IMG/VR virus record: IMGVR_UViG_3300032088_001521
Location: 1-21,401 of that record
Reading direction: 5' to 3' (one strand)
Source: a virus
DNA length: 21,401 nt
Position 1 is the stretch's first letter; every line of letters begins with the position of its first letter. This document shows, piece after piece, positions 1,226 to 20,485 of the stretch. Under the pieces are notes generated by a model, which ran no database searches, was not told the origin of the DNA, and saw only the letters and a list, made by a program, of their open reading frames with translations. Both the position numbers and the translations under genes were made by a program.

Positions 1226-2065
1226 ATGGACTACTATTCTACTTTAGGTGTTTCAAAAAATGCTTCTGACAAAGAACTTAAACAAGCATACAAAAAATTA
1301 AGTATGCAACACCATCCTGACCGAACAGGCGGTGATGACTCTAAGTTTAAAGAAATTAACGAAGCGTATAGCACACTTAAAGATCCACAAAAAAGAGCAG
1401 AATACGATAACCCACAACCGCAGTATTCGCAAGGCTTTGGACCTAATGGGTTTGGTAATCCTGGTGCCTTCCAAGATATATTTTCTCAGTTTGGTGTTAA
1501 TTTTGGTAACATGGGAGGTAGACAAGTACGCAATAAAGATGTTAAAATAACATATACAATTGAGTTTGAAGAATTGTTTACTGGTAAGGCTGTAAATATA
1601 CAATATAATTTACCTAGTGGTAGAAAAGGTAATTTAGATGCTGCAATACCACCCGGAGTTAAAGGCGGAGATGTAGTAAAGTTTGCAGGTTACGGCGACG
1701 ATAGTGCAGCTCATTTACAAAGAGGAGATCTTTTAGTTCATATTAGAGTTAAAGGACATAAACATTGGACAAGAGAAGGCGATAATATTGTAGCTGTTAA
1801 GAATGTAAGTATATTTGATCTTATGATAGGAACTAGCGTAGAAATTAAAACACCTTTAGGTAATGGATATCACTTAAGAATACCTAGAGGAACTAAACCA
1901 GGTACAGTTTTTAGTATAGCAGGACAAGGCATACCTAATTCACAAACAAAACGCCCAGGAAATGTACATGTAAAAATAGGAGCAGTTGTTCCTGAAATAA
2001 ACGATGAAAAGATTTTAAATCAACTAAAGGATATAAAAGATGCAATTGATACAATCACCAAATAG
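1226..2065 (+). CDS. DnaJ/CbpA-type J-domain co-chaperone
   Basis: A 279-aa class B (type II) J-domain protein. Residues 3-61 form a J domain with the HPD tripeptide (H30-P31-D32) that stimulates the ATPase of DnaK/Hsp70. A Gly/Phe-rich linker follows (about 68-98, with repeated Phe-Gly and Asn-Gly). Residues about 103-265 look like the paired beta-sandwich substrate-binding domains, including the G-D-L-L-V-H-I-R-V motif typical of DnaJ/CbpA C-terminal domains. The Cys4 zinc fingers of class A DnaJ are absent, which makes it CbpA-like. No DnaK is seen, so it probably redirects the host Hsp70. It overlaps the deformylase gene by 26 bases, and deformylase and ClpA genes follow, suggesting a joint role in handling phage or host proteins. 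Confidence 0.9.
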   Translation: MDYYSTLGVSKNASDKELKQAYKKLSMQHHPDRTGGDDSKFKEINEAYSTLKDPQKRAEYDNPQPQYSQGFGPNGFGNPGAFQDIFSQFGVNFGNMGGRQVRNKDVKITYTIEFEELFTGKAVNIQYNLPSGRKGNLDAAIPPGVKGGDVVKFAGYGDDSAAHLQRGDLLVHIRVKGHKHWTREGDNIVAVKNVSIFDLMIGTSVEIKTPLGNGYHLRIPRGTKPGTVFSIAGQGIPNSQTKRPGNVHVKIGAVVPEINDEKILNQLKDIKDAIDTITK

Positions 2066-2549
2066 TTTTTTAACACGTAAAGTTAAACCGTTTGATTTTA
2101 ACGAACTTGATGCTAAACAAGTTTCAGGAGAAATGTGTCAAATTATGATGGCTAAAAATGGTTTAGGCCTAGCGGCAAACCAAGTTGAGCTTGATGCACA
2201 AATATTTGTTATGAGACCTGTTGAAAACGAAGCAGTTACTAAGCCGTTTGCTGTTATTAATCCAGTAATTATGAAAGTTGATAGTGATACTGTATTAGGG
2301 AAAGAAGGGTGTTTAAGTCATCTTGGATTATTATTAAATATAAGACGTCCCAAGACTTTGGTAGCAAAGTTTCTTGACATTGACGCAAAAGAGTGTATAC
2401 TAGAGTTTAGTGGAATAGATGCTAGATGCTTTTTACACGAGTATGATCATCTACAAGGAATAGAGTTTACAGATAGAGTAAGTAAGTTAAAGTTAGATAT
2501 GGCAAAGAAAAAGCAAAAAAAATTAATTAAGGAACACGTCAATGGTTGA
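2040..2549 (+). CDS. def: Peptide deformylase
   Basis: A 169-aa peptide deformylase, which removes the formyl group from the initiator methionine of nascent proteins at the ribosome exit. All three family motifs are intact: G-L-G-L-A-A-N-Q (41-48), E-G-C-L-S (89-93, Cys91 as metal ligand) and H-E-Y-D-H (133-137, two His ligands and the catalytic Glu). The length is close to that of bacterial Def, and the basic C-terminal tail (about 148-169, Lys-rich) is short. Phage deformylases are known in marine T4-like viruses, where they are thought to support rapid production of phage or photosystem proteins. The start codon lies inside the J-protein gene, and the end overlaps clpA by 8 bases, so translation is probably coupled through all three genes. 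Confidence 0.95.
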   Translation: MQLIQSPNSFLTRKVKPFDFNELDAKQVSGEMCQIMMAKNGLGLAANQVELDAQIFVMRPVENEAVTKPFAVINPVIMKVDSDTVLGKEGCLSHLGLLLNIRRPKTLVAKFLDIDAKECILEFSGIDARCFLHEYDHLQGIEFTDRVSKLKLDMAKKKQKKLIKEHVNG

Positions 2550-4785
2550 GCCAAGTAAAGAGTTACAAGCAGTATTTGAAAAAGCAATTAAAGATGCAAA
2601 AAGACTAAAGCATGAATATGTTACATTAGAACACTTGCTTTTTGCAATGATGTGTAGTGAAAACTTCTACGGCATCATTAAAGGATACAGTGCAGATGTA
2701 GAGTATTTGAAGTCAAATTTAGAACACTATTTGAAAAATAGTTGTGACGAAATTACAATCGACACTAACAAACACAAGCCTAAAAAAACACAAACTGTAG
2801 AACGTGTACTTAATCGTGCGTTTACACAAACACTATTTGCAGGTAGACAAAATATTGAACTTACTGATGTAATGTTGAGTATTCTTAGTGAAAAGAAATC
2901 ACATAGTGCATACTACTGTGAGCAAGCTGGTATTGTTAAGGAAGACTTTGCGGCATATATTAGCAGTGAAATTGAAACAGAACTTGAAGATGAAGAAATG
3001 TCAGGTGCGGCACAAAAGGCACTGAGAGCATTTACTACTAATCTTAATGACGAAGTTAAAAAAGAGAAAATTGATCCTGTTATTGGTCGTGCAGAAGAAC
3101 TAGACAACATTGCATTAGCAATTGGTAGACGTTCTAAGAACAATGTGTTGCTTGTAGGTGATCCCGGTGTTGGTAAAACTGCTATTGCCGAAGGTATGGC
3201 ATTCAATATTGTACAAGGTAATGTACCAGAGTTTCTAAAAGAATATGCAGTATATAATTTAGACATTGGTAGTATGCTTGCCGGTTCAAAATACCGAGGA
3301 GACTTTGAAGAACGCTTTAAACTTGTACTAGCAGGCCTTAAGAAAAAAGGTAAGACTATTATGTTCATTGACGAAGCTCACATGATTAGTGGTGCTGGCG
3401 CATCTGGATCAGGTAGTTCAAATGATCTAGCAAATATGTTAAAGCCTGCATTAGGCAAAGGCAACTTAAAAGTAGTTGCGTCAACTACTTGGGACGAGTA
3501 TCGCAAATACTTTGAAAAAGATCGTGCGTTGATGCGTCGATTCCAACGTGTAACAGTTGACGAGCCTAGCAACGAAGTTACAAGAGATATTTTACGTGGT
3601 ATTAAAAAGTACTACGAAGACTATCACGGTACTGAAATTACTGAAGGTGCTATTAACGAAGCAATTAAATTGAGTGTAAAGTATCAAGCAGACAAAAAGT
3701 TACCTGATAAAGCAATTGACTTAATTGATCAAGCATGTTCAAGATTTAATTTGAAAGAAACAATAGATAAAAAGATTGTTACAGCAGATGAAATACAATT
3801 TGAACTTGCTAAAGCAGTTAACTTGCCTGCAGAGCAAGTAAGTGAAACTGAAACAGAAAATCTTGTACATCTTGAGAAGAATATTAAAGGACAAGTGTAC
3901 GGACAAGACAAAGCCGTTGAAGGAATTGTAGATAAAATACTTGTAAGTCAAGCAGGTCTTAAGCCTGAAGACAAACCTATTGGATCGTTTGTGTTTATGG
4001 GACCAACAGGAACAGGTAAAACAGAAACAGCGAAAGCACTTGCTACAAACTTAGGTGTAAAACTAGTACGTTTTGATATGAGTGAGTATCAAGAGCGTCA
4101 TAGTGTTGCTAAACTATTAGGTTCACCTCCTGGATATGTAGGACATGATGAAAAAGGCGGATTGCTTATTGAAAAATTACAAGAATCACCTAACTGTGTA
4201 TTACTACTAGATGAGATTGAAAAAGCACACCCTGATGTATCACAGTTACTATTACAAGTTATGGACAATGGTAAAATTACAGGTGCAAATGGTAAAGAAG
4301 CAGATGCACGTAATTGTATCTTAATTCTTACAACTAACTTAGGTGCAGCAGATTCAGAGAAAAATACAATCGGCTTTGGTGGTGAACTTGAAGATAACTC
4401 ATATGAAGACAAAGCTCTTAAAAAGTTCTTTGCTCCAGAATTTAGAAATAGACTAGATGGTGTAATTACGTTTAACAAATTAGGCAAAGAAATTATGCTT
4501 AAAATTGTTGGTAAATTCCTTGTTGAACTTAAAGATCAAGTTAAAGGTAAAAATGTAAAAATTGAAATTACAGATGAAACTTTAGATTACTTAGTAGACA
4601 AAGGATTTGATCCTAAGATGGGTGCAAGACCTTTACAGCGTGTAATTGATCAAGAAATTAAACGTAGTCTTGCTAGAGAATTATTATTTGGTGATCTAAA
4701 GAATGGCGGTACTTTGATTATTGATACAGTTGATAATAAAATAGTTCTAAATACTAAAGGACATACACAAGTTGAAAAAGTTTGA
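2542..4785 (+). CDS. clpA: ClpA-type AAA+ unfoldase
   Basis: A 747-aa two-ring Hsp100 ATPase of near full ClpA length. Domains in order are an N-terminal Clp repeat domain (about 1-145), D1 with Walker A G-D-P-G-V-G-K-T (206-213) and Walker B I-M-F-I-D-E-A-H, and D2 with Walker A G-P-T-G-T-G-K-T (487-494) and Walker B L-L-L-D-E-I-E-K. D2 ends in the usual G-A-R-P-L-Q-R sensor 2 region. There is no long ClpB/ClpC middle coiled coil. An I-G-F tripeptide (610-612) sits where ClpA/ClpX carry the loop that docks on ClpP, so the protein could feed substrates to host ClpP. No ClpP is present here. An AAGGA ribosome site precedes the ATG, which lies inside the deformylase gene. Confidence 0.93.
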   Translation: MVEPSKELQAVFEKAIKDAKRLKHEYVTLEHLLFAMMCSENFYGIIKGYSADVEYLKSNLEHYLKNSCDEITIDTNKHKPKKTQTVERVLNRAFTQTLFAGRQNIELTDVMLSILSEKKSHSAYYCEQAGIVKEDFAAYISSEIETELEDEEMSGAAQKALRAFTTNLNDEVKKEKIDPVIGRAEELDNIALAIGRRSKNNVLLVGDPGVGKTAIAEGMAFNIVQGNVPEFLKEYAVYNLDIGSMLAGSKYRGDFEERFKLVLAGLKKKGKTIMFIDEAHMISGAGASGSGSSNDLANMLKPALGKGNLKVVASTTWDEYRKYFEKDRALMRRFQRVTVDEPSNEVTRDILRGIKKYYEDYHGTEITEGAINEAIKLSVKYQADKKLPDKAIDLIDQACSRFNLKETIDKKIVTADEIQFELAKAVNLPAEQVSETETENLVHLEKNIKGQVYGQDKAVEGIVDKILVSQAGLKPEDKPIGSFVFMGPTGTGKTETAKALATNLGVKLVRFDMSEYQERHSVAKLLGSPPGYVGHDEKGGLLIEKLQESPNCVLLLDEIEKAHPDVSQLLLQVMDNGKITGANGKEADARNCILILTTNLGAADSEKNTIGFGGELEDNSYEDKALKKFFAPEFRNRLDGVITFNKLGKEIMLKIVGKFLVELKDQVKGKNVKIEITDETLDYLVDKGFDPKMGARPLQRVIDQEIKRSLARELLFGDLKNGGTLIIDTVDNKIVLNTKGHTQVEKV

Positions 4786-5804: not shown

Positions 5805-6389
5805 ATGGAACATTATGTAACAGTAGTAATGGAAAAACAAGAAACTACAGCACTGGATGAAAGTGCATTTCCCGTTTACGAAACATTTGACAGCGAACAA
5901 GATACAACAGTTATGCAAATACCTTTGCCTAGAACACTTGACGAACAAGAATCAAATGAATATGCAAACAAATTAGCAAACTATTTGTTTTCAGAAGGTT
6001 ATGAAGACTTTGATATTTTTGTAAATGCACACGAAGCAGAAGATATACACGAAGTTACATTTGATGATGACGATGACTTCTTTGCAGAGTATGGTGTTAT
6101 GTGGTATAACGATGATGATGTTATTGACGAAGCAGAATATCAAGGCCGTAAAGTTAAACTTGGTAAGCCTATGCAAGGTGACGTTAAGAAGTTTAAAGTA
6201 TATGTTAAGAATCCAAAGGGTAATGTAGTTAAAGTTAACTTTGGACATGGCGGAAGTAGCGTCAAAGGCAAAGCAATGAAAATTAGAAAGAATAATGCAG
6301 CAGCAAGACGTTCTTTCAGAGCAAGACACAACTGTGATAATCCTGGTCCACGTCATAAGGCACGTTACTGGTCATGTAGAAAGTGGTAA
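5805..6389 (+). CDS. Acidic protein with basic Cys/His C-terminal module
   Basis: A 194-aa protein with three visible parts. Residues 1-80 are mixed and acidic. Residues 83-110 are extremely acidic (two Asp runs: F-D-D-D-D-D-F-F and N-D-D-D). Residues 112-194 form a strongly basic module starting E-Y-Q-G-R-K-V-K-L-G, with G-H-G-G-S and ending in a compact Cys/His/Arg tail (Cys177, Cys191, His175, His184). I recall similar C-terminal modules as free-standing or fused small proteins in T4-like marine phages, without a proven function. A nucleic-acid-binding or head-internal role is plausible from charge. An AAGGA site 6 bases upstream supports the ATG. The gene sits directly before the cargo-like block. 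Confidence 0.6.
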   Translation: MEHYVTVVMEKQETTALDESAFPVYETFDSEQDTTVMQIPLPRTLDEQESNEYANKLANYLFSEGYEDFDIFVNAHEAEDIHEVTFDDDDDFFAEYGVMWYNDDDVIDEAEYQGRKVKLGKPMQGDVKKFKVYVKNPKGNVVKVNFGHGGSSVKGKAMKIRKNNAAARRSFRARHNCDNPGPRHKARYWSCRKW

Positions 6390-6392
6390 GTT

Positions 6393-6713
6393 ATGAAAAT
6401 ATTCGAAGTAGTAGAACCAAATTTTGATATAGTTGACGATACTAGCGTTTATATGCGTAATGACCCTGAGTTTTATCGTAAGGAATATTTTCCTGCGATG
6501 GCTAGTATGGCGGACATGCACAGTAGAGGTAAACCAGTAGATTCACATAAATCATTATCTGGATTAGTCGACAAAGGCTGTACTAGTTACTGTAAAAAAT
6601 ACAATTTAGCAAGACACCCTGACGAAGTATACACCCAAGAACACAGAGATGCTTTAATTGATAAATTATTTTCAGAAGAAATGGAACTAATTAAGCAAGG
6701 TGAATACAAATGA
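6393..6713 (+). CDS. Small phage protein with capsid-targeting-like N-terminus
   Basis: A 106-aa protein of no known function. The N-terminus M-K-I-F-E-V-V-E resembles the short targeting peptides of T4 internal head proteins, which begin M-K-T-Y-Q-E-F and are cut after a Glu by the prohead protease. Here the Glu8 is followed by Pro, so cleavage is less certain. The body is helical and polar with a D-P-E-F-Y-R-K-E-Y-F-P-A-M motif (25-37) and two Cys (63 and 67, in G-C-T-S-Y-C). I recall this body as a recurring module in marine T4-like phages. The gene starts 3 bases after the preceding stop and overlaps the next gene as ATGA. Confidence 0.6.
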   Translation: MKIFEVVEPNFDIVDDTSVYMRNDPEFYRKEYFPAMASMADMHSRGKPVDSHKSLSGLVDKGCTSYCKKYNLARHPDEVYTQEHRDALIDKLFSEEMELIKQGEYK

Positions 6714-8191
6714 GGCTAAGAGAATTATTCGAAGCACCAGCAACAGCAGTAATGGCATTTGGAAGAATGAATCCACCTACTATTGGACATGCTAAACTAG
6801 TTGCCGCAATTAAAAGTCAACCAGGTGATCCTTTTATATTCTTAAGTCAAAGTCAAAAACCTAAAACAGATCCGCTATCCTTTAATGACAAATTGCGTTA
6901 TGCTAAGTTTTTCTTTCCAGAAGTTACTATCGGTAATCCAGAAGTAAAAACAATTATACAAGCACTACAAAAAATAGAATCACTAGGCTATCAACAATTA
7001 ATTTATGTTGCAGGCAGTGATCGTATTTCGTCATTTGAAGAACTAATTAACAAATATAATGGTAAAGATTACAACTTCAAATCAATTAAAGTTGTAAGTG
7101 CAGGCCAACGTGACGCAGATGCTGAGGGTGCAGAAGGCATGAGTGCAAGTAAACTAAAGAAACTTGCAGCTGAAGGAAAACTTGAAGACTGGACAGACGA
7201 AACAGGTAAAAAACAACCAGGCTTTAGGAGTGGTGTTCCAGAACCTAAACTAGCAGACGAAATGTTTGCAGCTGTAAGACAAGGTATGGGTGTTAGAGAT
7301 CAAGTACCTGCTGAAAGTATAGAAGAAAATATAACAAGTGCAGATATACCTGTTGTAACATACGATAGAAATTACGGTGGTGATGTTAACAAAGTACTTG
7401 CAGTAAAACGTAATGCAAAGGCTGATGCAGAAGCATTGTATAAAAAATTAGGTGGCGTAAGTGATGCAAATTATGAAATTATTTCTAAAGCTGCAGAACA
7501 AAAGAAACAAGAGTTACGTCAAGTATATAGAGATGCACTAGCAAAACAAGGCATCAAAGGTGCAGCAGCACTTAAATCTCCAGAATACTTATTGTTTAGA
7601 AAACAAAATGCTGACTTATCAATTATGTTAGGAACAGCAATGAATATGGTAGGAAACGGATCTGGTAAATTAATTAAACCAAATGGTAAAATAATTAAAC
7701 CAAGTGAAGGTATAGAAGAAGCAGAACTTACACCAGGACAAGGATTGCCTAAACAAATTAAAGTAATCAAAATGCCTACACCTCCACAAGCACCTACTGG
7801 TCCAGATGGAACAGGTGAAGATGGAACACGTATTGGTACTACACCAAAAGGTAATAGAAGTGTTTCAAGTGGTGCAGGAACATATATTTTTGCGCCAACA
7901 GGTGATTTAATGTTGTATATGACTCCGAAGATAGGTGGACTACAGCAAACACATAACATTCCAAAACAACGTATTACAGTAAACTATGGTACTACTATTG
8001 ACGGGGCAGGTATAGATCAAAAAGCAACTTATGATATGAGCGGTAAACTTATAAGTGGCGATAATACATCAATTAGTAGCGGTGATATTGGTGTAAGTGT
8101 TGACAAAGATAAAGGATCAACAGTAAATTATAAAGTAGACGCTAATACAAAAGTTTCAGCAAACAGTAAAACTGGTATAAAGGTTAATTAA
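6710..8191 (+). CDS. NMNAT/cytidylyltransferase-like enzyme with C-terminal extension
   Basis: A 493-aa protein whose first about 160 residues are a nucleotidyltransferase domain. It has G-R-M-N-P-P-T-I-G-H (18-27), the HxGH-class nucleotide-binding motif with Thr in place of the first His, and an S-A-S-K-L-K segment (145-150) matching the second motif. This fold transfers AMP or CMP, as in NadM-type NMN adenylyltransferases, and related phage enzymes are called cytidylyltransferases. The N-terminus M-R-L-R-E-L-F-E-A fits a capsid-targeting peptide with cleavage after L-F-E. The middle (about 165-330) is helical and polar. The last about 160 residues are Gly/Ser/Thr/Asn-rich, beta-like and of unknown role. 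Overlaps by ATGA and TAATG join it to both neighbours. Confidence 0.8.
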   Translation: MRLRELFEAPATAVMAFGRMNPPTIGHAKLVAAIKSQPGDPFIFLSQSQKPKTDPLSFNDKLRYAKFFFPEVTIGNPEVKTIIQALQKIESLGYQQLIYVAGSDRISSFEELINKYNGKDYNFKSIKVVSAGQRDADAEGAEGMSASKLKKLAAEGKLEDWTDETGKKQPGFRSGVPEPKLADEMFAAVRQGMGVRDQVPAESIEENITSADIPVVTYDRNYGGDVNKVLAVKRNAKADAEALYKKLGGVSDANYEIISKAAEQKKQELRQVYRDALAKQGIKGAAALKSPEYLLFRKQNADLSIMLGTAMNMVGNGSGKLIKPNGKIIKPSEGIEEAELTPGQGLPKQIKVIKMPTPPQAPTGPDGTGEDGTRIGTTPKGNRSVSSGAGTYIFAPTGDLMLYMTPKIGGLQQTHNIPKQRITVNYGTTIDGAGIDQKATYDMSGKLISGDNTSISSGDIGVSVDKDKGSTVNYKVDANTKVSANSKTGIKVN

Positions 8192-8403
8192 TGTATACTA
8201 GTATTGATGAACTTAAGAAACTTGCTGGTGTAAACGAATTCAAAGGTTACACAGAGTACACTCTTGAGAATATCAGTGATGCAGCAGCTTCTAATCGCAA
8301 GAAAGAAAAAGCACAAAATATAAAACCAGGTGACAAAGAATGGTTTAAACTTTGGTTCAGTCTTCCACATATGACTGGTGCAACATTTAGAGGACGTAAG
8401 TAA
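8191..8403 (+). CDS. Small conserved phage protein with LAG motif
   Basis: A 70-aa protein. Residues 5-16 contain I-D-E-L-K-K-L-A-G-V-N-E, an amphipathic segment of the (L)-A-G-V-x-E kind, which recurs in the larger gene at 10932 as A-L-A-G-V-S-L-T-E. Both end in a hydrophobic-x-Glu site like the T4 prohead-protease consensus. The C-terminal part holds a G-D-K-E-W-F-K-L-W-F-S-L-P motif (48-60), which I recall as a recurrent short module in marine T4-like phages. No enzyme motif is seen. Stop/start overlaps (TAATG) connect it to genes on both sides. Function unknown; a packaged head protein is inferred. Confidence 0.55.
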   Translation: MYTSIDELKKLAGVNEFKGYTEYTLENISDAAASNRKKEKAQNIKPGDKEWFKLWFSLPHMTGATFRGRK

Positions 8404-8837
8404 TGAAAATATTTGAAATTACAAGTGAAAAATATACTGGGCCTTTAAGTGACAAGCAAAAAGAATTACTTAAAAAAGGTTATAAATTAGATAAAGATGG
8501 GGTACCTTATTGGCAGCCGGACGGGGATAAAGTAAGTCCTTTTTATCAAGACGAATTAGGACCAGGATGGGATAAAGATTCTTTAGATAAAGATGCTGAT
8601 GAGATTATTCCTGGTACTAGTGCTGCTTTAGATAAGGCTAGAACAAATCCTAACAGCAAATACCATGCAAATACAACAACAGATTTTTCAGGTGGTGGAT
8701 ACACAACTACTAGAAGAACCGATAAAGGTACAAAGGTAGATAAATTTCCAAGTATAAATGCAAAAGTAAGCACAACAACACAGAAGAAAAAGGGTGGTAA
8801 ACTCAAAACAGATGTGAAATTTAAAGGCAATCTATAA
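8403..8837 (+). CDS. Basic phage protein with capsid-targeting-like N-terminus
   Basis: A 144-aa unrecognised protein. The first nine residues, M-K-I-F-E-I-T-S-E, closely match those of the gene at 6393 (M-K-I-F-E-V-V-E) and at 9802 (M-K-I-Y-E-I-L-G-E), although the bodies are unrelated. This pattern suggests a shared address signal. The remainder is hydrophilic and Lys/Asp/Gly/Thr-rich, with a Lys-rich basic tail (about 126-144) and no strong hydrophobic core, so much of it may be disordered. Linked to neighbours by TAATG overlaps on both sides. Confidence 0.55.
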   Translation: MKIFEITSEKYTGPLSDKQKELLKKGYKLDKDGVPYWQPDGDKVSPFYQDELGPGWDKDSLDKDADEIIPGTSAALDKARTNPNSKYHANTTTDFSGGGYTTTRRTDKGTKVDKFPSINAKVSTTTQKKKGGKLKTDVKFKGNL

Positions 8838-9802
8838 TGAGATACAACGATATCAAAGAAGGTGTTGGCCGCATTACAAAGCAAAATCAAACTGTTGATG
8901 TAGGACCTAGTGAAATTAAAACCCAAGCTGCAAAGTTTGGAAATAAAGTAGATAAAGATGGTCGTCCACCTACACTATCAAAAAAAGTAAAAGGTTCTAA
9001 AACAAATGTATTGTTTAACTTAGGTATGTCTGAATCTATTTCGGTTGACAACCTATATGAAAACGTGCTATACTTCAGACAAATGAAAGAAAATTTAGGC
9101 GAAATAGCACAGGCAACAGAAATATATGTAGACATGGACGGCGTACTTGCTGACTTCTTTGGCGAGTGGGCTAAACTAATGAAAGTTGATCATTATTCAA
9201 AAATCGACGATATTGATATTAATGTAGCACTACAAAAGATTCGAGACACAGACGAGTTTTGGTTAAATCTTCCATTACTTCCACAAGCAAAACAACTTCT
9301 TTCAGTTATAAAACAAATCAAAGGTGAATACAACATATGTAGTACGCCGTTGGCAGACGATCCTAATTCAGAGCCACACAAGCGTGAATGGATTAAAAGA
9401 AATTTAGCATTTTTTCCACCTAAGAATGTTTATATAACAAACAACAAACCACAATATGCAACCAAAGAAGATGGTACACCTAACATACTAATTGACGATT
9501 TTGGTAAAAATGTTGATGCATGGGAAGCTGCAGGTGGTACAGGATTCAAATACAAAGATCATAAATTTGAACGCACAGCAAAAGATCTGCAACAGCATTT
9601 AAATGCAAAAGTTCATGATAATATGGCAGAGAACTTTGCTGATGGTAAGAAAAAAGGCAAAAGCAGACCAGGGCGTGTAAAACGTTCAGGTGCTAGTTGT
9701 AACGGTAGCGTAACAGAATTAAGAGCTAAAGCTAAAAAGGCAAGCGGTGAACGTGCTAAAATGTATCACTGGTGTGCTAATATGAAAAGTGGGAGATCAT
9801 AA
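8837..9802 (+). CDS. HAD 5'-nucleotidase-like protein with extra N- and C-terminal modules
   Basis: A 321-aa three-part protein. Residues 1-90 hold M-R-Y-N-D-I-K-E-G (a possible targeting peptide cut after I-K-E) and a polar module ending near G-M-S-E. Residues 95-255 are a HAD-superfamily phosphatase with D99-M-D101-G-V-L-A-D, a Ser/Thr motif (S169-T170), Lys182, and the acidic I-L-I-D-D motif (217-221). This is the layout of the 5'(3')-deoxyribonucleotidase family, which strips phosphate from dNMPs. Residues 265-321 are a very basic tail with Cys288, His311 and Cys313, ending in an M-Y-H-W-C-A-N-M-K motif. A packaged nucleotidase is an inference. The HAD assignment itself is firm. Confidence 0.8.
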   Translation: MRYNDIKEGVGRITKQNQTVDVGPSEIKTQAAKFGNKVDKDGRPPTLSKKVKGSKTNVLFNLGMSESISVDNLYENVLYFRQMKENLGEIAQATEIYVDMDGVLADFFGEWAKLMKVDHYSKIDDIDINVALQKIRDTDEFWLNLPLLPQAKQLLSVIKQIKGEYNICSTPLADDPNSEPHKREWIKRNLAFFPPKNVYITNNKPQYATKEDGTPNILIDDFGKNVDAWEAAGGTGFKYKDHKFERTAKDLQQHLNAKVHDNMAENFADGKKKGKSRPGRVKRSGASCNGSVTELRAKAKKASGERAKMYHWCANMKSGRS

Positions 9803-9987
9803 TGAAGATATATGAAATATTAGGTGAAACTACTACTGCATCAGGTAGTATTTCTGTAGCAGTAAAGCCTGTAGGTAAGATGCAAAGCAGAACTATGTAT
9901 AACGCAGACGGTACAATGAAAAATGCGTTAGATGGCGATAAATTAATGGCTGGTAAAAAGAAGCCGAAGAAGAACAAACAAGCATAA
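9802..9987 (+). CDS. Very small basic protein with capsid-targeting-like N-terminus
   Basis: A 61-aa protein starting M-K-I-Y-E-I-L-G-E-T, the clearest match in the window to a T4-like capsid-targeting peptide (cleavage expected after L-G-E). The remainder has M-Y-N-A-D-G-T-M-K-N-A-L-D and a Lys-rich tail (52-59). If cut after Glu9, the product would be a 52-residue basic peptide, which would suit a DNA-associated internal head protein. No known domain. Shares TAATG with the nucleotidase-like gene upstream. A possible late promoter lies at its end. Confidence 0.6.
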   Translation: MKIYEILGETTTASGSISVAVKPVGKMQSRTMYNADGTMKNALDGDKLMAGKKKPKKNKQA

Positions 9988-9990
9988 ATA
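9983..9990 (+). promoter_or_regulatory. Possible T4-type late promoter (CATAAATA)
   Basis: CATAAATA differs from the late consensus TATAAATA only in the first base. It lies at the end of the 61-aa gene, in one of the few small gaps of the block, 27 bases before the ATG at 10018. A CGGAG ribosome site at 10007-10011 follows. The placement matches that of the exact copy at 511-518. Confidence 0.4.
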
Positions 9991-10017
9991 CTACTATTAA
10001 AGTATTCGGAGATAATT

Positions 10018-10545
10018 ATGACTAAAAAACTTAAAGAAGGCGGCTTAGGCGATCTAGCACATGCAGCTGAACGTGACCACGAAGTACAAATGGCACGAGC
10101 AGATCTGTATAAGATTGCAAAATATGCTATCAAACTACACGATATGCTTAAAACAGTAAGTGAAGCTGAAGGCATTGAAGGTTGGCAACAATCAAAAATT
10201 ACAAAAGCAGCAGATTACATTGGATCAGTATACCATGCTATGGATTACGATATGAAATTTGCAGAATCTAAAAGCACAAAAAATGTTATGAATCGTTCTA
10301 AGACAATGACTGAAGAATCATACTTAGAAGCAATGCAATCAAAAGTAGCAAGCAAACTTGCTGAATCTGAAGCATTATGTTCTGAGTGTGGCAATCCAAG
10401 TTACACAACATTAGGCTTATCAGAAGCAGAGCTAGATGAAGTAGCTGGTCCTGAAAAGTGTTGGAAAGGCTACAAGAGAGCTGGAACACAAGCTGGTACT
10501 GGTAAGAACGCAGGCAAACGTGTCAATAAGTGTGTGAAAGCATAA
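10018..10545 (+). CDS. Helical phage protein with Cys-rich C-terminal tail
   Basis: A 175-aa protein of unknown function. The first eight residues, M-T-K-K-L-K-E-G, offer an L-K-E cleavage site near the N-terminus. Residues about 12-80 are strongly helical (A-R-A-D-L-Y-K-I-A-K-Y-A-I-K-L) and I recall this block in other marine T4-like phages. The C-terminal third has a C-S-E-C pair (121-124) and two later Cys (148 and 172) in a Lys/Gly-rich tail (G-T-G-K-N-A-G-K-R-V-N-K-C). Four Cys with this spacing could bind zinc, which is untested. GGAG lies 6 bases before the ATG. Confidence 0.6.
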   Translation: MTKKLKEGGLGDLAHAAERDHEVQMARADLYKIAKYAIKLHDMLKTVSEAEGIEGWQQSKITKAADYIGSVYHAMDYDMKFAESKSTKNVMNRSKTMTEESYLEAMQSKVASKLAESEALCSECGNPSYTTLGLSEAELDEVAGPEKCWKGYKRAGTQAGTGKNAGKRVNKCVKA

Positions 10546-10551
10546 GTTACT

Positions 10552-10935
10552 ATGCGTGTATCAGAAGGCATATTTGATTGGTTCAAAAAGAAAGAAAAAA
10601 CAATCGGCGATAGTCCCGAATACAAAGGCTGGTTGAACATTTATCTTAAGAATCCTGATGTTGCTGCAATGCACAAGCGTCATAAAGAATTTTTACAATA
10701 CTATCAACAATCACAAAAGAATGAAGAACTTGACTTTGGTAAAATGTGGAATACTTTGATGCATGGCCCTAACGATGATTTTCCAAAATATTTAGAGTTT
10801 GCTCAAAGTAAAATGAATTACTTACCTGATGACAGAATACGCAAACGTTTAAAGATGAAGTTTCCAAAAATTATGCCTGTAGACATTGAACGTGTAATTA
10901 AAAAGATACAAGCACTAAGAGCAAACAGATCATGA
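10552..10935 (+). CDS. Unknown basic helical phage protein
   Basis: A 127-aa protein that I do not recognise. It begins M-R-V-S-E-G-I-F-D-W-F-K-K-K, a short amphipathic start with a Glu5-Gly6 junction that could be a minimal targeting peptide. The body is helical, rich in Lys, Phe, Tyr and Trp (Trp10, 27 and 66) and lacks Cys. The C-terminus (about 100-127) is basic with K-M-K-F-P-K-I-M-P. It starts 6 bases after the preceding stop and overlaps the next start as ATGA. Confidence 0.55.
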   Translation: MRVSEGIFDWFKKKEKTIGDSPEYKGWLNIYLKNPDVAAMHKRHKEFLQYYQQSQKNEELDFGKMWNTLMHGPNDDFPKYLEFAQSKMNYLPDDRIRKRLKMKFPKIMPVDIERVIKKIQALRANRS

Positions 10936-11537
10936 GTGATAACTTTTACGAAATGAGTGCAAAGATGAAGGAACTATTTCCTTCAAATCCCGAAGCAGAC
11001 AAAAAAGCTCTACTTGCAATGGCTGGTAATACAACACCAGTTGAAACTCCAACAGTGGTACAAGAGAGTGTAGAAGTAGCACAAGGTTCACTACAAATGG
11101 ACAAAGACTATAGTATTTCAGACTTTGCGGCATTAGCCGGAGTTAGTCTTACAGAAGGCAAACAAAAAACAGGCAGTGCAGGACAACTAAAAGGCAAAGA
11201 TGCAATTACTAAAAGTGCTACTCCAGGTGGCAACGAATCACCACATCCTGCTAGAAACAAATTAGTAGGAGAAGCTGAAGAAGATCGTATTACAGCATTA
11301 GAGCGCAGAATAGAAGCACTTGAATCAATGCTTAGTGAGCGTGAACTTAGCAAAGGCGAAGAAAAAGAAAAAGAACGTCTTGTTAAAGGTATGAAGAAAA
11401 ACAAAAGTGATTTCAAAGATCGCTATGGCAAGGATGCAGAAGCAGTTATGTATGCAACAGCAACCAAAAACGCCAAAAAGAACGAATCTATTAAAGATCA
11501 GCTTCTTAAAATGCTTGACGAAAAAAAGCAAAAATAA
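10932..11537 (+). CDS. Coiled-coil phage protein with internal LAG/E site
   Basis: A 201-aa hydrophilic protein. Residues 1-33 are helical. Residues 58-76 contain Y-S-I-S-D-F-A-A-L-A-G-V-S-L-T-E-G, with a predicted L-T-E/G protease site at 75. Residues 116-152 form a strongly charged coiled coil (E-R-R-I-E-A-L-E-S-M-L). The segment 164-182, R-Y-G-K-D-A-E-A-V-M-Y-A-T-A-T-K-N-A-K, is a module that I recall in several unrelated phage proteins. If the internal site is used, a large N-terminal piece (about 75 aa) would be removed. A scaffold-like or packaged role is possible. No enzyme motif is seen. It is the last gene before a strong promoter. Confidence 0.55.
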   Translation: MSDNFYEMSAKMKELFPSNPEADKKALLAMAGNTTPVETPTVVQESVEVAQGSLQMDKDYSISDFAALAGVSLTEGKQKTGSAGQLKGKDAITKSATPGGNESPHPARNKLVGEAEEDRITALERRIEALESMLSERELSKGEEKEKERLVKGMKKNKSDFKDRYGKDAEAVMYATATKNAKKNESIKDQLLKMLDEKKQK

Positions 11538-11540
11538 TAC

Positions 11541-11569
11541 TTGACAACTACTAAAAAATAACGTATAAT
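11541..11569 (+). promoter_or_regulatory. Consensus sigma70 promoter
   Basis: TTGACA at 11541-11546 and TATAAT at 11564-11569 with a 17-base spacer: both hexamers are perfect and the spacing is optimal. Transcription would start near 11576, just before the AAGGAG ribosome site. The host housekeeping polymerase should use it directly, so the downstream genes, through the polymerase and sugar cassette, may be transcribed early. It is the strongest promoter I see in the window. Confidence 0.85.
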
Positions 11570-11594: not shown

Positions 11595-11858
11595 ATGAGT
11601 GAACGTACCTATGGTGCAGAAGAAAAAGCAAAACTTGAACGTCTTGTTAACGAAGGTGTTACAGTATTGCAAGAGATTGAAGACCTAAATGCAGGGTTAA
11701 AAGATACCGTGAAAGCAGTAGCAGAAGAATTAGATGTAAAACCAAGTTTAATTAACAAAGCAATTAAAATTGCACAAAAAGGCGAATGGTTAAAAGTTGC
11801 AGATGAGTTTGATGACTTAGAAACACTAGTAGCTACAGTAGGAAGAGATAAAATCTAG
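11595..11858 (+). CDS. dsbA: DsbA-like double-stranded DNA-binding protein
   Basis: An 87-aa helical, acidic/basic mixed protein close in size to T4 DsbA (89 aa), a dsDNA-binding protein that assists late transcription. Residues 12-47 are helical, and 49-77 contain the family-like segment L-D-V-K-P-S-L-I-N-K-A-I-K-I-A, with Lys-rich faces suited to DNA contact, followed by an E-W-L-K-V-A-D-E-F stretch. The match is by overall pattern and not by a catalytic motif, so another small DNA-binding protein is possible. It has its own promoter and ribosome site. Its stop codon shares a base with the GTG start of the next gene. Confidence 0.65.
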   Translation: MSERTYGAEEKAKLERLVNEGVTVLQEIEDLNAGLKDTVKAVAEELDVKPSLINKAIKIAQKGEWLKVADEFDDLETLVATVGRDKI

Positions 11859-15699: not shown

Positions 15700-16229
15700 A
15701 TACAGACTACGAAACTCAAGTAACTAATGCATATAAAGACTTTAAGTCTAACAAAGACATTAGTGGGTTTCAAAGTATTATTGACTTTATTAATAGCGAA
15801 AATCCAGCACTAGTTATAGATGCTGGGTGTGGAGATAATATATTTAAATATTATATTCAAAACTTACAAGGCTTTGATGTAAGAGATATTAAAGAAGCTG
15901 ATTATAAAGGCACATATCAAGATATGGATAAAGTGTTTAAACCTAACAGCGCAGATGCAATAATTTGTTTTGGAAGTTTAGGGTTTGGAAATAAACAAAT
16001 AATACAAAGTAATTTAGAACTTATGTATAAATGGTTAACTAAAACTGGTTATCTGTTTATGATCGAAATTTCAGATCATGATGTTACTGAAAAGGATGTA
16101 AAAGATTATCCACAAAAATATTTTTGGAACAAACAGAAAATAGAATACTTTCAAAATAAATTTAATTTTAAAGTATCAGGTAGTCCAGTATTACATTTAG
16201 GAAAGTTAAATTGGGTATGGCAAAAATGA
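15696..16229 (+). CDS. SAM-dependent methyltransferase
   Basis: A 177-aa class I methyltransferase-like protein. Motif I, V-I-D-A-G-C-G-D (40-47), binds S-adenosylmethionine, and the middle has the hydrophobic strand A-I-I-C-F-G-S-L-G-F followed by a long helix. There is no N-P-P-Y or P-C catalytic motif of DNA methyltransferases, so a small molecule, sugar or protein is the more likely substrate. The ATG at 15696 overlaps the MazG-like stop (ATGA) and the end overlaps the next start likewise. In the cassette it might methylate an activated sugar. Confidence 0.78.
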   Translation: MNTDYETQVTNAYKDFKSNKDISGFQSIIDFINSENPALVIDAGCGDNIFKYYIQNLQGFDVRDIKEADYKGTYQDMDKVFKPNSADAIICFGSLGFGNKQIIQSNLELMYKWLTKTGYLFMIEISDHDVTEKDVKDYPQKYFWNKQKIEYFQNKFNFKVSGSPVLHLGKLNWVWQK

Positions 16230-16630
16230 GAGTAGGATTTACTTGTAGTACGTTTGATTTGTTACACGCAGGACATGTAATTATGTTGCGTGAAGCAAAA
16301 GAACAATGCGATTATCTTATATGCGGATTACAGGTTGATCCTAGTATAGATAGAAAAGAAAAGAATGCACCAATACAAACTGTAGTGGAACGCTATACAC
16401 AATTAAAAGGTGTTGAGTATGTAGATGAAATTATTCCATACGGCACTGAAGCTGATTTAGAAGACATCCTTAGTATGTACCCAATAGATGTACGTATACT
16501 AGGAGAAGAATATCGCGATAAAGATTTCACAGGCAAAGATATTTGTCGAAAACGTGATATAGAATTGCATTTTAACAAAAGAGATCATCGCTTTAGTACA
16601 AGTGATTTACGGAGAAGAGTTTGTGAATAA
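16226..16630 (+). CDS. TagD-like cytidylyltransferase
   Basis: A 134-aa nucleotidyltransferase of nearly the same length as glycerol-3-phosphate cytidylyltransferase TagD (about 130 aa). It has the class motif T-F-D-L-L-H-A-G-H (9-17, with HxGH at 14-17) and a C-terminal R-F-S-T-S-D-L-R-R (122-130) matching the R-x-x-G-x-S-T-S region. It should join CTP to a phosphorylated small molecule (glycerol-3-phosphate or a sugar phosphate) to give a CDP-activated product. The ATG at 16226 overlaps the methyltransferase stop as ATGA. The gene ends in an overlap with the phosphomannomutase-like gene. Confidence 0.85.
   Translation: MRVGFTCSTFDLLHAGHVIMLREAKEQCDYLICGLQVDPSIDRKEKNAPIQTVVERYTQLKGVEYVDEIIPYGTEADLEDILSMYPIDVRILGEEYRDKDFTGKDICRKRDIELHFNKRDHRFSTSDLRRRVCE
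16611..16619 (+). promoter_or_regulatory. Ribosome site that selects a GTG start
   Basis: GGAGAAGAG lies inside the end of the cytidylyltransferase gene and 3-8 bases before GTG 16623. It favours this GTG over the earlier GTG at 16602, and the resulting N-terminus places the D-V-D-G-T motif at the position usual for the family. Confidence 0.6.
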
Positions 16631-17318
16631 ATTTATATTTGATGTAGACGGAACACTTACACCTAGTCGTGGGTTAATTAACAAAGAATTCGAACAGTTT
16701 TTTGAAAACTTTTGTTTAGCTAATGACGTGTATCTAGTTACTGGTAGCGACAAACCTAAAACTGTTGAGCAAGTAGGTGAAAAGATATACAATAGATGTA
16801 AACGGGTTTACCAGTGTTCAGGCAGTGATGTTTGGGAAGGTGACAATAGTATACTTAAAAGTATATGGACATTGCCTGATCTAGCAAGAACATTTTTAAT
16901 TAGTTGCGAGTACGAAAGTCCATTTAGTATACGCACAGGTAATCATATCGAAGAACGTAGTGGCATGGTTAACTTTAGTGTTGTAGGACGTAATGCGTCA
17001 TTGTATGAACGCAAACAATATGCAGACTTTGATGAAGAAAATAAAGAGCGTATCAAAATTGCCAAGGCGTTTAATATGATGTTTCCTGACTTACAAGCAA
17101 CCGTAGGTGGTGAAACTGGTATTGATATTGCCCCACGTGGTGCAGATAAGTCACAGATACTAAGAGACTTTAAAGAAGAAGATACTATACACTTTTTTGG
17201 TGATGCAATGTTTGAAGGTGGTAATGACTACTCTTTAAAGAAAGCACTGTGGGAACGTGGTAACAGTTCAACACACCAAGTAAGTGATTGGGAAAATACA
17301 TGGGAGTTATTAATATGA
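16623..17318 (+). CDS. Eukaryote-type phosphomannomutase (HAD family)
   Basis: A 231-aa HAD-superfamily protein that matches the PMM1/PMM2 type of phosphomannomutase and not the common bacterial alpha-D-phosphohexomutase type. Visible motifs are D-V-D-G-T-L-T-P-S-R (7-16), N-F-S-V-V-G-R-N-A-S (117-126), G-G-E-T-G-I-D-I-A-P-R-G-A-D-K (162-176) and F-F-G-D-A-M-F-E-G-G-N-D (191-202). The length is close to the usual 240-250 aa. It should interconvert mannose-6-phosphate and mannose-1-phosphate (or a similar hexose phosphate), the entry to nucleotide sugars. The GTG start is supported by a GGAGAAGAG site. It overlaps both neighbours (8 and 4 bases). Confidence 0.85.
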   Translation: MNKFIFDVDGTLTPSRGLINKEFEQFFENFCLANDVYLVTGSDKPKTVEQVGEKIYNRCKRVYQCSGSDVWEGDNSILKSIWTLPDLARTFLISCEYESPFSIRTGNHIEERSGMVNFSVVGRNASLYERKQYADFDEENKERIKIAKAFNMMFPDLQATVGGETGIDIAPRGADKSQILRDFKEEDTIHFFGDAMFEGGNDYSLKKALWERGNSSTHQVSDWENTWELLI

Positions 17319-18070
17319 AAATTCTATTAACAGGACATAAAGGGTTTATAGGAAGTCATTTATTAAACAAACTTAAAAAAGAGCATAGCGTTGTAGGAAT
17401 TGATCTACAAGACGGTAACAGTCAAGATTTACTTACATGTGAGTTTAATGAAGAGTTTGATTTGATTATACATTTAGCAGGCAAAAGCGGAGTGCGTGAA
17501 AGCATTAATGATCCTGCAGGATACTGGCGTAATAACGTAGAAGCAAGTAAACGCTTGTTTGCACGTTATCCTGATACAAAGGTGCTTTATGCAAGCTCTA
17601 GTAGCGCCTATGAGCCCGATTTAAATCCGTATGCCGCAAGTAAGTATGTTGTAGAAGAAGCTGCAGAGAGATATCATAATACACTAGGCATGCGATTCCA
17701 CACAGTGTACTCAAGTACACCTAGACAAGGAATGTTTTTGCAAAAACTAATAGATGGTGAACTAGAATATACAACAACACATTACAGAGATTTTATACAT
17801 ATTGAAGATTTATGCACAGCAATACAATTATGTATGAAAAGTAAGTATACAGGCACAATTGATATTGGATCTGGACACCCTTACAAAGTGTCAGACTTTG
17901 CTCCAGATCTTCCTGTCCGCCTAAATACACCATATGAACGCAATTGGACTTGTGCAAATATGGAAAAAATAAAGACCTTAGGCTTTAAACCTAAATACTC
18001 AGTAGAAAACTACTTGACATCTTTGCCAAAAGATAATATAATAAAACTTGAAATAGGAGAAAACATATGA
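17315..18070 (+). CDS. NAD-dependent sugar epimerase/dehydratase (extended SDR)
   Basis: A 251-aa extended short-chain dehydrogenase. It has T-G-H-K-G-F-I-G (6-13) for NAD binding, Asp30 at the end of strand 2 (NAD preference), an S-S-S-S-A-Y strand and the catalytic Y-A-A-S-K (106-110), and R-D-F-I-H-I-E-D (158-165), typical of UDP-glucose 4-epimerase and nucleotide-sugar dehydratase relatives. It is shorter than the usual 310-340 aa, with a reduced C-terminal substrate domain and a shortened loop before the Tyr. The likely substrate is a nucleotide-linked or phospho sugar made by the enzymes upstream. ATGA overlaps join it to both neighbours. Confidence 0.88.
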   Translation: MKILLTGHKGFIGSHLLNKLKKEHSVVGIDLQDGNSQDLLTCEFNEEFDLIIHLAGKSGVRESINDPAGYWRNNVEASKRLFARYPDTKVLYASSSSAYEPDLNPYAASKYVVEEAAERYHNTLGMRFHTVYSSTPRQGMFLQKLIDGELEYTTTHYRDFIHIEDLCTAIQLCMKSKYTGTIDIGSGHPYKVSDFAPDLPVRLNTPYERNWTCANMEKIKTLGFKPKYSVENYLTSLPKDNIIKLEIGENI

Positions 18071-18798: not shown

Positions 18799-18951
18799 AT
18801 GATAACTGAAAAACAGGCTAGAAAAGACTTTAGAGAAATGCGTAAAAAAGATAAAGTGTTTTCTGAGTGTTGGCCTGATACAGATAGACAATTTTACGAA
18901 TGGTGCTCTAGTTACTTAGACTATAAGCACATTAAGGATAAAGATGAATAA
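18799..18951 (+). CDS. 50-aa conserved-looking small protein
   Basis: A 50-aa open frame between the clamp and TGT-like genes. It starts 3 bases after the clamp stop and overlaps the next ATG. The translation is charged (R-K-D-F-R-E-M-R-K-K-D-K near the N-terminus) with a Cys/Trp-rich middle (E-C-W-P-D-T, E-W-C-S-S-Y) and many aromatic residues. It fills an otherwise empty 148-base gap in the operon and its codon choice is like its neighbours. No clear ribosome site and no known family, so it is kept at moderate confidence. Confidence 0.45.
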   Translation: MITEKQARKDFREMRKKDKVFSECWPDTDRQFYEWCSSYLDYKHIKDKDE

Positions 18952-20485
18952 AGACTTAACAGCATCACAAAACGACTACGCACATTTTTTGCCAGCATTG
19001 AGCGGTTTCTATGCAACATATGTAGGCAAGCAACGCTTTCCTGATCCTGTTAAAGGTCCTTATATCGAAGATACACGTATTCCTGCTAACTGGAACAATG
19101 GTGTAGAAAGTCTTAACTATCTCAATGCAAAAGAAGGAGCGTTTACTTATAAGTGGACACTCTATTCTGCAGGACATGCTGACTTAGATACAAATAAAAT
19201 TGTACCTAAAGAAGATATGGTACGTAATAGAGATAGAGAAAACACTTGGTTACTAGGTGACTCAGGTGGTTTCCAAATTGGTAAAGGTGTTTGGGAAGGC
19301 GATTGGAAAGATCCTAATTGTCCTAAAGCACAAAAGAAAAGAGATGGTGTATTGCGTTGGATGGACGCTTACATGGACTATGGAATGATACTTGATATTC
19401 CAGCCTGGGTAGCACGTTCACCTGAAGGTGCAAAAGCAACAGGTATTAGTACATATCAAGAAGCAGTTAAGGCAACACGCATCAACAATGACTACTGGAT
19501 GAAGCATAGAACAGGTGCTTGTAAATTGTTAAATGTTTTGCAAGGTGAGAATCACACAGACGCAGATGACTGGTACGAGCAGATGAAAGACTATTGCGAT
19601 ACAACTAAGTATCCTGACACACACTTTAATGGGTGGTCAATGGGTGGACAGAACATGTGTGATGTGCATTTGGTTCTTAAACGCATAGTTACATTGCATT
19701 ATGATAACCTACTACAACAAGGTGTACACGATGTAATGCACTTCTTAGGCACATCTAAACTAGAGTGGGCTACACTATTAACTGATATACAACGTGCTAT
19801 ACGCAAGTATTACAACCCTAATATGATGCTTACATTTGATTGTGCTTCACCTTTCTTAGCAACTGCTAACGGACAAGTATACATTCAAAATGAAACTCCT
19901 GATAGAGGTAAGTGGACATATCGAATGGTTCCAAGTGTAGACGATAAGAAATACGCAACTGACACACGAACGTTTAAAGATGCTGTACTACAAGATGGTG
20001 TATTTAAAAACTTTGAAGACTCGCCGTTAACAGACGGTATGCTTGTAAGTGATGTATGCACATACAAACCCGGAGACCTAAATAAGATAGGTAAAGAAGG
20101 AAAGACATCATGGGATAGTTTTAGTTATGCTATTCAAATGGGTCATAATGTATGGAGTCATATTAATGCTGTACAAGAAGCAAACAGACAATACGATGCA
20201 GGCGTTATACCTAAGATGCTTATACAAGAGCAGTTTGATAGAATTACATTTAGAGATGTTGTAGAGGAAATATTCTCCGCAGGTTCAAAAGAAGCATCAC
20301 TAGAATTAATTGAAAAATATTCAAAGTTTTGGATGGCTATTCCAGGTACTAGAGGTGCTATTGGTAAAAAGACTGTAAATGCTAGTACACATTTTAATGC
20401 ATTATTTGATATTGAAGAAACAGTAGTCGAAGATGAAGAATTAGACGAAACTAAGTTGGAGGAACTTGAGGATGAGCAATTATGA
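18944..20485 (+). CDS. dpdA: TGT/DpdA-like transglycosylase
   Basis: A 513-aa member of the tRNA-guanine transglycosylase superfamily. Aligned landmarks are L-L-G-D-S-G-G-F-Q (103-111, base-binding/catalytic loop), N-V-L-Q-G-E (197-202), G-W-S-M-G-G-Q (230-236), H-F-L-G-T-S (266-271) and L-T-F-D-C-A-S-P-F (296-304), where Asp299 matches the nucleophilic Asp of TGT. The C-x-C-x2-C zinc site of bacterial TGT is absent, the protein is longer than TGT (about 375 aa), and the tail is acidic (about 483-513). Phage proteins with these traits (DpdA) exchange guanine in DNA for a 7-deazaguanine and so protect it from restriction enzymes. tRNA as substrate is less likely. The precursor genes are not in this window. 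Confidence 0.75.
   Translation: MNKDLTASQNDYAHFLPALSGFYATYVGKQRFPDPVKGPYIEDTRIPANWNNGVESLNYLNAKEGAFTYKWTLYSAGHADLDTNKIVPKEDMVRNRDRENTWLLGDSGGFQIGKGVWEGDWKDPNCPKAQKKRDGVLRWMDAYMDYGMILDIPAWVARSPEGAKATGISTYQEAVKATRINNDYWMKHRTGACKLLNVLQGENHTDADDWYEQMKDYCDTTKYPDTHFNGWSMGGQNMCDVHLVLKRIVTLHYDNLLQQGVHDVMHFLGTSKLEWATLLTDIQRAIRKYYNPNMMLTFDCASPFLATANGQVYIQNETPDRGKWTYRMVPSVDDKKYATDTRTFKDAVLQDGVFKNFEDSPLTDGMLVSDVCTYKPGDLNKIGKEGKTSWDSFSYAIQMGHNVWSHINAVQEANRQYDAGVIPKMLIQEQFDRITFRDVVEEIFSAGSKEASLELIEKYSKFWMAIPGTRGAIGKKTVNASTHFNALFDIEETVVEDEELDETKLEELEDEQL

Follow-up and report, generated by a model that had tools for sequence, protein, structure and literature searches.

Genes of the block

We have analysed a 21,401-base fragment from IMG/VR (record IMGVR_UViG_3300032088_001521; the whole fragment is hereafter called the window), which comes from an uncultured T4-superfamily phage of the ocean that infects bacteria. 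Between positions 6393 and 11537 it carries a block of nine genes, all on the plus strand. A preliminary description had noted that at least six consecutive genes of this block begin with a short peptide ending in Glu, and had read these peptides as capsid-targeting tags. The block genes are listed below and are named in the text by their first position; a slash marks the junction between the tag and the body of the protein.

6710 to 8191, plus strand: candidate cargo, nucleotidylyltransferase-superfamily enzyme; tag MRLRELFE/A at 6710-6733
8403 to 8837, plus strand: candidate cargo with no assigned function; tag MKIFEITSE/K at 8403-8429
8837 to 9802, plus strand: candidate cargo, 5'(3')-deoxyribonucleotidase (NT5C); tag MRYNDIKE/G at 8837-8860
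9802 to 9987, plus strand: small basic cargo candidate of 61 amino acids; tag MKIYEILGE/T at 9802-9828
10018 to 10545, plus strand: candidate cargo, helical protein with a DHEVQMARADLYK core and a C-terminal CWKGY..NCVKA module; tag MTKKLKE/G at 10018-10038
10552 to 10935, plus strand: probable cargo; tag MRVSE/G at 10552-10566
6393 to 6713, plus strand: doubtful member; MKIFEVVE/P
8191 to 8403, plus strand: block gene without a tag; starts MYTSIDELKKLAGVNE/FKGYTEY
10932 to 11537, plus strand: block gene without a tag; FKDRYGKDAEAVMYATATK module, assigned by a match to PHROG 12788

All the N-termini quoted in the preliminary description were found at their genes, each behind a plausible start. 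The tags themselves therefore stand, but they do not form an unbroken run, as gene 8191 intervenes and gene 10932 is untagged. Gene 6393 is a weak member. A propeptide end of the form [LI]-x-E is present in genes 6710, 8837, 9802 and 10018, V-x-E is present in gene 10552, and the ends in genes 8403 and 6393 are weaker. Gene 8403 reads ITSE in the window and MKIFEIISE in relative L004; it occurs in two relatives only and is thus an accessory gene. The tag of gene 6710 is found in 10 of 10 aligned orthologs with an invariant Glu at residue 8, the orthologs of gene 9802 start with MKIKELCE/TT, MKISDLCE/TT or MKIKDITE/A, and in the orthologs of gene 10552 in L027 and L029 a fuller MKITDLDE/G replaces MRVSE ahead of the same body. 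A longer propeptide is conceivable for gene 8191, because [VI]NE is conserved in most of its orthologs. The structure model of the gene 10018 product is helical and of low confidence (pTM 0.29).

Shared N-termini in the window and its relatives

Among cultured phages, the jumbo phages Sinorhizobium Phosso (about 50% identity) and Agrobacterium Atu_ph07 (about 46%) have the family-B DNA polymerases closest to that of the window. For comparison we used 80 relatives, taken from viral contigs, that are nearer than the cultured phages. The DNA polymerase of one relative, G001 (182 kb), is 89% identical to that of the window.

The shared N-termini are real and exceed chance, as judged from the motif count in the window and from the ortholog families. 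The motif M[KRN]...[ILVFM]xE is present in 4 of the 9 block genes and in 0 of the 24 other genes (P = 0.003), a motif that was picked after the sequence had been read, so that the orthologs are the better test. When 24 ortholog families from the same loci were compared, the 8 block families were enriched for the tag over the 16 control families (Mann-Whitney P = 1e-4, which is optimistic, as are the other P values from ortholog rows, since the rows are related by descent). Glu is found at residue 8 in 38 of 69 distinct N-termini of the tag families, compared with 14 of 250 in the control families. Pooled over the clade, the motif reads M-[RK]-x-[RK]-[ED]-[LIF]-x-E/[GADT] and precedes unrelated bodies.

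The tag is also confined to one locus. In the relatives, 69 of 69 tagged proteins sit in the block, at most 9 kb upstream of the DNA polymerase, and none of the 647 proteins elsewhere is tagged. These 69 proteins are basic and have about 15 unrelated bodies, and the gene content of the block differs strongly between close relatives. In the family of gene 8837, Glu stands at the junction with the conserved GRI[TV]K start in 19 of 19 distinct propeptides, while the propeptides themselves vary widely (MRYNDIKE/GV, MRWTQFNE/GV, MRIRELFE/D, MKIYEILNE/D, MNLRQLYE/Y and MKFKELAE/D). Among the 31 distinct propeptides of the gene 10018 family, which have 6 to 15 residues or longer inserted stretches, 28 have Glu immediately before the conserved G-L body and 3 have Glu plus one residue. 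Judged by these alignments, the tag appears to behave as a cleavable propeptide, variable in length and sequence and with a fixed Glu-body junction.

Another explanation would be that the likeness reflects AT-rich starts rich in M-K/R and shared ancestry, that it plays no part in packaging, and that the enzymes are normal metabolic proteins of early infection. MK and MR starts are indeed common (K or R is at residue 2 in 37% of the control N-termini), the motif is short, and the rows are phylogenetically related. However, the control families of the same loci are almost devoid of the tag, none of the 647 proteins outside the block has it, unrelated bodies share it, the Glu-body junction is kept while the propeptide length varies, and enzymes detected in virions (see below) carry the signature. 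We consider this explanation very improbable.

Prohead protease and predicted capsid cleavage site

In relative G001, an S77 protease (E = 1e-25) is encoded between the portal, scaffold and capsid genes. In 67 of 67 distinct capsid N-termini of the clade, residues 39-41 read L-x-E, where x varies, and the next residue is S, T or A. This site agrees with the rule for gp21 of T4, which cuts at L/I-x-E (PMC9026906), and the specificity after I/L-x-E that the preliminary description gave for gp21 is the same as that in the T4 review. The L-x-E also stands where the capsid protein is expected to be cut during maturation, and virions contain homologous tagged enzymes. It is therefore extremely improbable that the tag docks the proteins to another phage structure, such as a replication site or membrane, with an incidental [ILV]xE nearby; in favor of such docking is the position of the block, which adjoins the DNA polymerase.

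We also noticed that the sequence with which the body of the gene 9802 family begins behind the predicted cut (TT..SG.[IV]..V..P.G) is similar to the N-terminal arm of the mature capsid protein of the clade, TATAGATSAGNVATLNR (L089 2330-3502), and to T4 gp24 (STTTNSNS).

Tagged proteins in cyanophage virions

The virion proteome of cyanophage S-CREM2 includes a SAM (S-adenosylmethionine) hydrolase, a kinase, a cytidylyltransferase and small proteins (PMC10665884, Table 3). In the genome, S-CREM2 virion proteins start with MKDFDSFLEE, MKRFDAFLTE (from a GTG start), MKNFSSFLTE, MKDLHSFLTE and MQTFSMFFSE, and the tagged virion enzymes are gp6 (PF23780 SAM lyase), gp14 and gp154. A strict T4-type regular expression matches 5 of 52 virion proteins and 0 of 167 other proteins (P = 6e-4), although it was composed with the S-CREM2 sequences in view; a relaxed one matches 5 virion proteins and 1 other protein (P = 0.003). 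Taken alone, [ILVFM]xE close to the N-terminus is not a significant classifier (15 of 52 virion and 31 of 167 other proteins, P = 0.08), and the case therefore depends on the fuller motif and its junction with a conserved body.

Because the strict expression was written with S-CREM2 in view, we examined the kinase of S-CRM01, which is stated to be a virion protein (PMC10665884), as a further case. A tag was predicted before the sequence was read and was found (MISFDQFLSE). This kinase shares one run with MKLFNQFFKE (the cytidylyltransferase), MKKLDQFLTE and MNFSEFLE. The cytidylyltransferase of S-SM1 (PMC3037559) and the cytidylyltransferase/NMNAT of S-SCSM1 (PMC9602691) are virion proteins as well; they start with MKKFSAFLNE and MKSFLQFLKE, respectively, and the S-SCSM1 gene sits within a run of virion proteins.

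Applied to T4, the T4-type expression finds IPII, IPIII and gp61.1 at gene starts. In G001 its single hit is MKTFTQILTE, at 172048-172620 close to the terminase, and G002 has no hit, which indicates that the clade uses a different form of the tag.

Some single proteins are worth recording. T4 gp61.1 (L191 18966-19130), a protein of unknown function, opens with MKTFKEFIKE, a good capsid-targeting sequence. S-CREM2 gp12 (L101 7704-10313) has a similar ..PLRFASFMAE/A at about residue 24 and ends with KTFRDFLN; its published 'Cas9' annotation has no Pfam support, and we have not counted this tagged protein as a nuclease. The small virion protein ORF93 of S-SCSM1 (L107 42627-42836) ends with RTFKEFLEYIE, which also resembles a capsid-targeting sequence.

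A candidate head-cargo locus

The preliminary description had proposed a dedicated set of head-packaged proteins, and this proposal gains support from the relatives (propeptide Glu, confinement to the block, protease and capsid site) and from mass spectrometry of cyanophage virions. The block is probably a cargo locus, whose proteins are targeted to the prohead, cleaved at their tags, carried in the head and released with the DNA at infection. A short N-terminal capsid-targeting propeptide of about 5-16 residues would dock the block proteins on the scaffold core of the prohead, and an S77 (gp21-like) protease would cleave after [ILV]-x-E during head maturation, as in the major capsid protein. 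The mature, mostly basic proteins would then be free inside the head, remain with the DNA and exit with it on infection, and the nucleotidylyltransferase-superfamily enzyme and the deoxyribonucleotidase could act on host nucleotide and cofactor pools ahead of phage gene expression. Packaging and cleavage in this phage are well-supported inferences; ejection and a role in the host lie one step further.

The same targeting evidence, together with the basic composition, would also be expected if the block proteins were scaffold-associated parts of the prohead core, cleaved in the head and serving assembly or DNA condensation instead of acting on the host. T4 has such core proteins, gp22, gp67 and gp68, which are cleaved by gp21 (PMC9026906), and several products of the block lack any recognised enzyme domain. 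Yet two members have recognisable nucleotide-enzyme domains, the content of the block is very variable among close relatives, unlike that of essential assembly parts, and among the tagged counterparts in cyanophages are a SAM lyase and a kinase. A purely structural role is thus unlikely.

Several points weigh against the reading as delivered cargo, in addition to the origin of the strict expression and the failure of the bare motif in S-CREM2. Genes 6393, 8191 and 10932 fit poorly; in gene 6393, the Glu and the site are not kept in orthologs and the residue following the cut (P1') is Pro. No prohead protease is encoded in the window, as may be expected for a 21-kb fragment. The virion proteomics comes from cyanophages and not from the clade of the window, and CsCl-purified virions could carry highly expressed enzymes as contaminants, as the cyanophage authors point out (PMC10665884). 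Finally, the tags in the window fall 1-2 residues short of the T4 length and do not match the T4-type expression, and residues 4 and 7, which are important in IPIII (PMC9026906), are not conserved in the same register.

The two apparent nucleotide enzymes

The preliminary description had placed two enzymes in the block, one NMNAT-like and one nucleotidase-like. The nucleotidase is borne out: the product of gene 8837 scores 32.6 bits against PF06941 (NT5C), for which the curated cut-off is 24.8, and has the DxDxV motif of NT5C/HAD proteins as VDMDGVLADF. It consists of an N-terminal GRI[TV]K module, an NT5C domain at about residues 96-240 and a C-terminal YHWCANMK module. The NMNAT assignment holds at the level of the superfamily only. 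Gene 6710 matches the PHROG cytidyltransferase (E = 3e-47) and has an enzyme domain at about residues 11-205, followed by a long variable C-terminal part; the T-x-G-H of the [HT]xGH motif is invariant. Its predicted fold is that of a nucleotidylyltransferase, matching PPAT, NadD and NMNAT, and the top structural matches are PPAT (TM about 0.5-0.67) and not NMNAT. Pfam CTP_transf_like scores below the cut-off, and a sequence search of the PDB gave no convincing match. From the profile match and the modelled fold, we assign the product to the nucleotidylyltransferase superfamily, within which it is not resolvable to NMNAT.

A cytidylyltransferase and an NT5C protein are also encoded close together in Pelagibacter phage HTVC008M and Methylophilales phage Melnitz. 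A virion-borne nucleotidylyltransferase and nucleotidase might buffer NAD or nucleotide pools against host depletion defences.

Comparison with known head-cargo systems

The clade tag is a variant of the known capsid-targeting principle of T4, where the first ten residues of IPIII suffice for targeting and the internal proteins are described as basic (PMC9026906). MKTYQEFIAE had been attributed to the T4 internal proteins and Alt; it is right for IPII and IPIII but not for Alt, which starts with MELITELFDE. The window system resembles IPI, IPII and IPIII in its short propeptide ending in [LI]-x-E, its unrelated and often basic bodies and its variable gene content. In contrast to theirs, the clade tag has about 8 residues, with an acidic residue 5 and a hydrophobic residue 6, and the candidate cargo of the clade includes nucleotide enzymes. 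The ten-residue T4 consensus (hydrophobic at 4, 7 and 8) is absent from the window tags and present in most cyanophage counterparts. Alt, an ADP-ribosyltransferase, is an injected head enzyme with a very short propeptide (MELITE...) and in this resembles the proposed cargo, but the enzyme families are unrelated, and in the window several enzymes and small proteins share one locus.

Another parallel is the T4-GC190 cytidylyltransferase, with its neighbouring block, of cyanophages S-SM1, S-SCSM1, S-CREM2 and S-CRM01, a homologous nucleotidylyltransferase with an N-terminal tag. It was detected by mass spectrometry in virions of S-SM1, S-SCSM1 and S-CREM2 and is clustered with virion or tagged proteins. 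The cyanophage tags keep the ten-residue T4 form, whereas those of the window do not, and gene 6710 shares about 40% identity with the cyanophage enzyme over about 190 amino acids and has a different C-terminal part. Head ejection proteins of the SPN3US/phiKZ type, compared by literature description only, also mature through cleavage after Glu by a protease related to T4 gp21 (PMC9026906), but they belong to another phage lineage and have other propeptides. Among the papers searched, none other than the T4 reviews and the SPN3US work bore on a link between capsid-targeting sequences and cyanophages or marine jumbo phages.

It is somewhat more likely than not that a head-cargo system which can be read from sequence and has a dedicated locus is common to the marine T4-superfamily phages, with cyanophages at one end of the range and uncultured relatives of jumbo phages at the other. 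A cleavable tag, in the ten-residue T4 form or the shorter clade form, would direct into the head a rapidly changing repertoire of enzymes to be delivered at infection, among them nucleotidylyltransferase, deoxyribonucleotidase, SAM lyase and kinase. If so, virion cargo could be predicted from sequence alone and listed for uncultured ocean phages. Enzymes have repeatedly been found in cyanophage virions, and whether they are packaged or contaminants was left undecided (PMC10665884); a cleavable tag on them offers a mechanism and a simple test between the two. Enzymes already present when the DNA enters could act against host defences, or readjust nucleotide and cofactor pools, ahead of phage expression.

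Neighbouring genes and other observations

Two features adjoin the block.

5805 to 6389, plus strand: upstream neighbour with a C-terminal SFRARHNCDNP..YWSCRKW module; L[DN]E/S in the N-terminal part
11541 to 11569, plus strand: perfect sigma-70 consensus, TTGACA-17-TATAAT, identified by consensus match only

Gene 5805 is a possible member of the tagged set. Its C-terminal module, YHWCANMK in gene 8837, CWKGY..NCVKA in gene 10018 and FKDRYGKDAEAVMYATATK in gene 10932 are small modules that occur on differing bodies among relatives, like exchangeable domains. Gene 10932 and the SAM lyase found in S-CREM2 virions both match PHROG 12788, and in several cyanophages the module of gene 10932 occurs close to the cytidylyltransferase. 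LAG[VIL], present in genes 8191 and 10932 and in the scaffold C-terminus, was considered as a second targeting motif and rejected, as its frequency in the window, G001 or G002 does not clearly exceed that in within-protein shuffles.

The predicted sigma-70 promoter lies directly behind the block and is followed by a small gene at 11595, with a PHROG transcriptional-regulator match, and the DNA polymerase; from its sequence, it probably marks the boundary to the next transcription unit. The T4 late-promoter-like TATAAATA is no more frequent than expected by chance and was dropped.

Elsewhere in the window, the product of 18944-20485 has no match in Pfam or PHROG. Its LLGDSGGFQIGKG is similar to the DSGGFQ motif of tRNA/DNA guanine transglycosylases, and the protein is possibly a divergent DNA-base modification enzyme. 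A run of sugar-nucleotide-like genes at 16211-18070 encodes a CTP_transf_like protein, a phosphomannomutase-type HAD protein and, judged by eye, an epimerase-like protein. At 1226-4785, a cassette of a DnaJ-like protein, a peptide deformylase and a Clp ATPase matches the gene order of jumbo phage Phosso.

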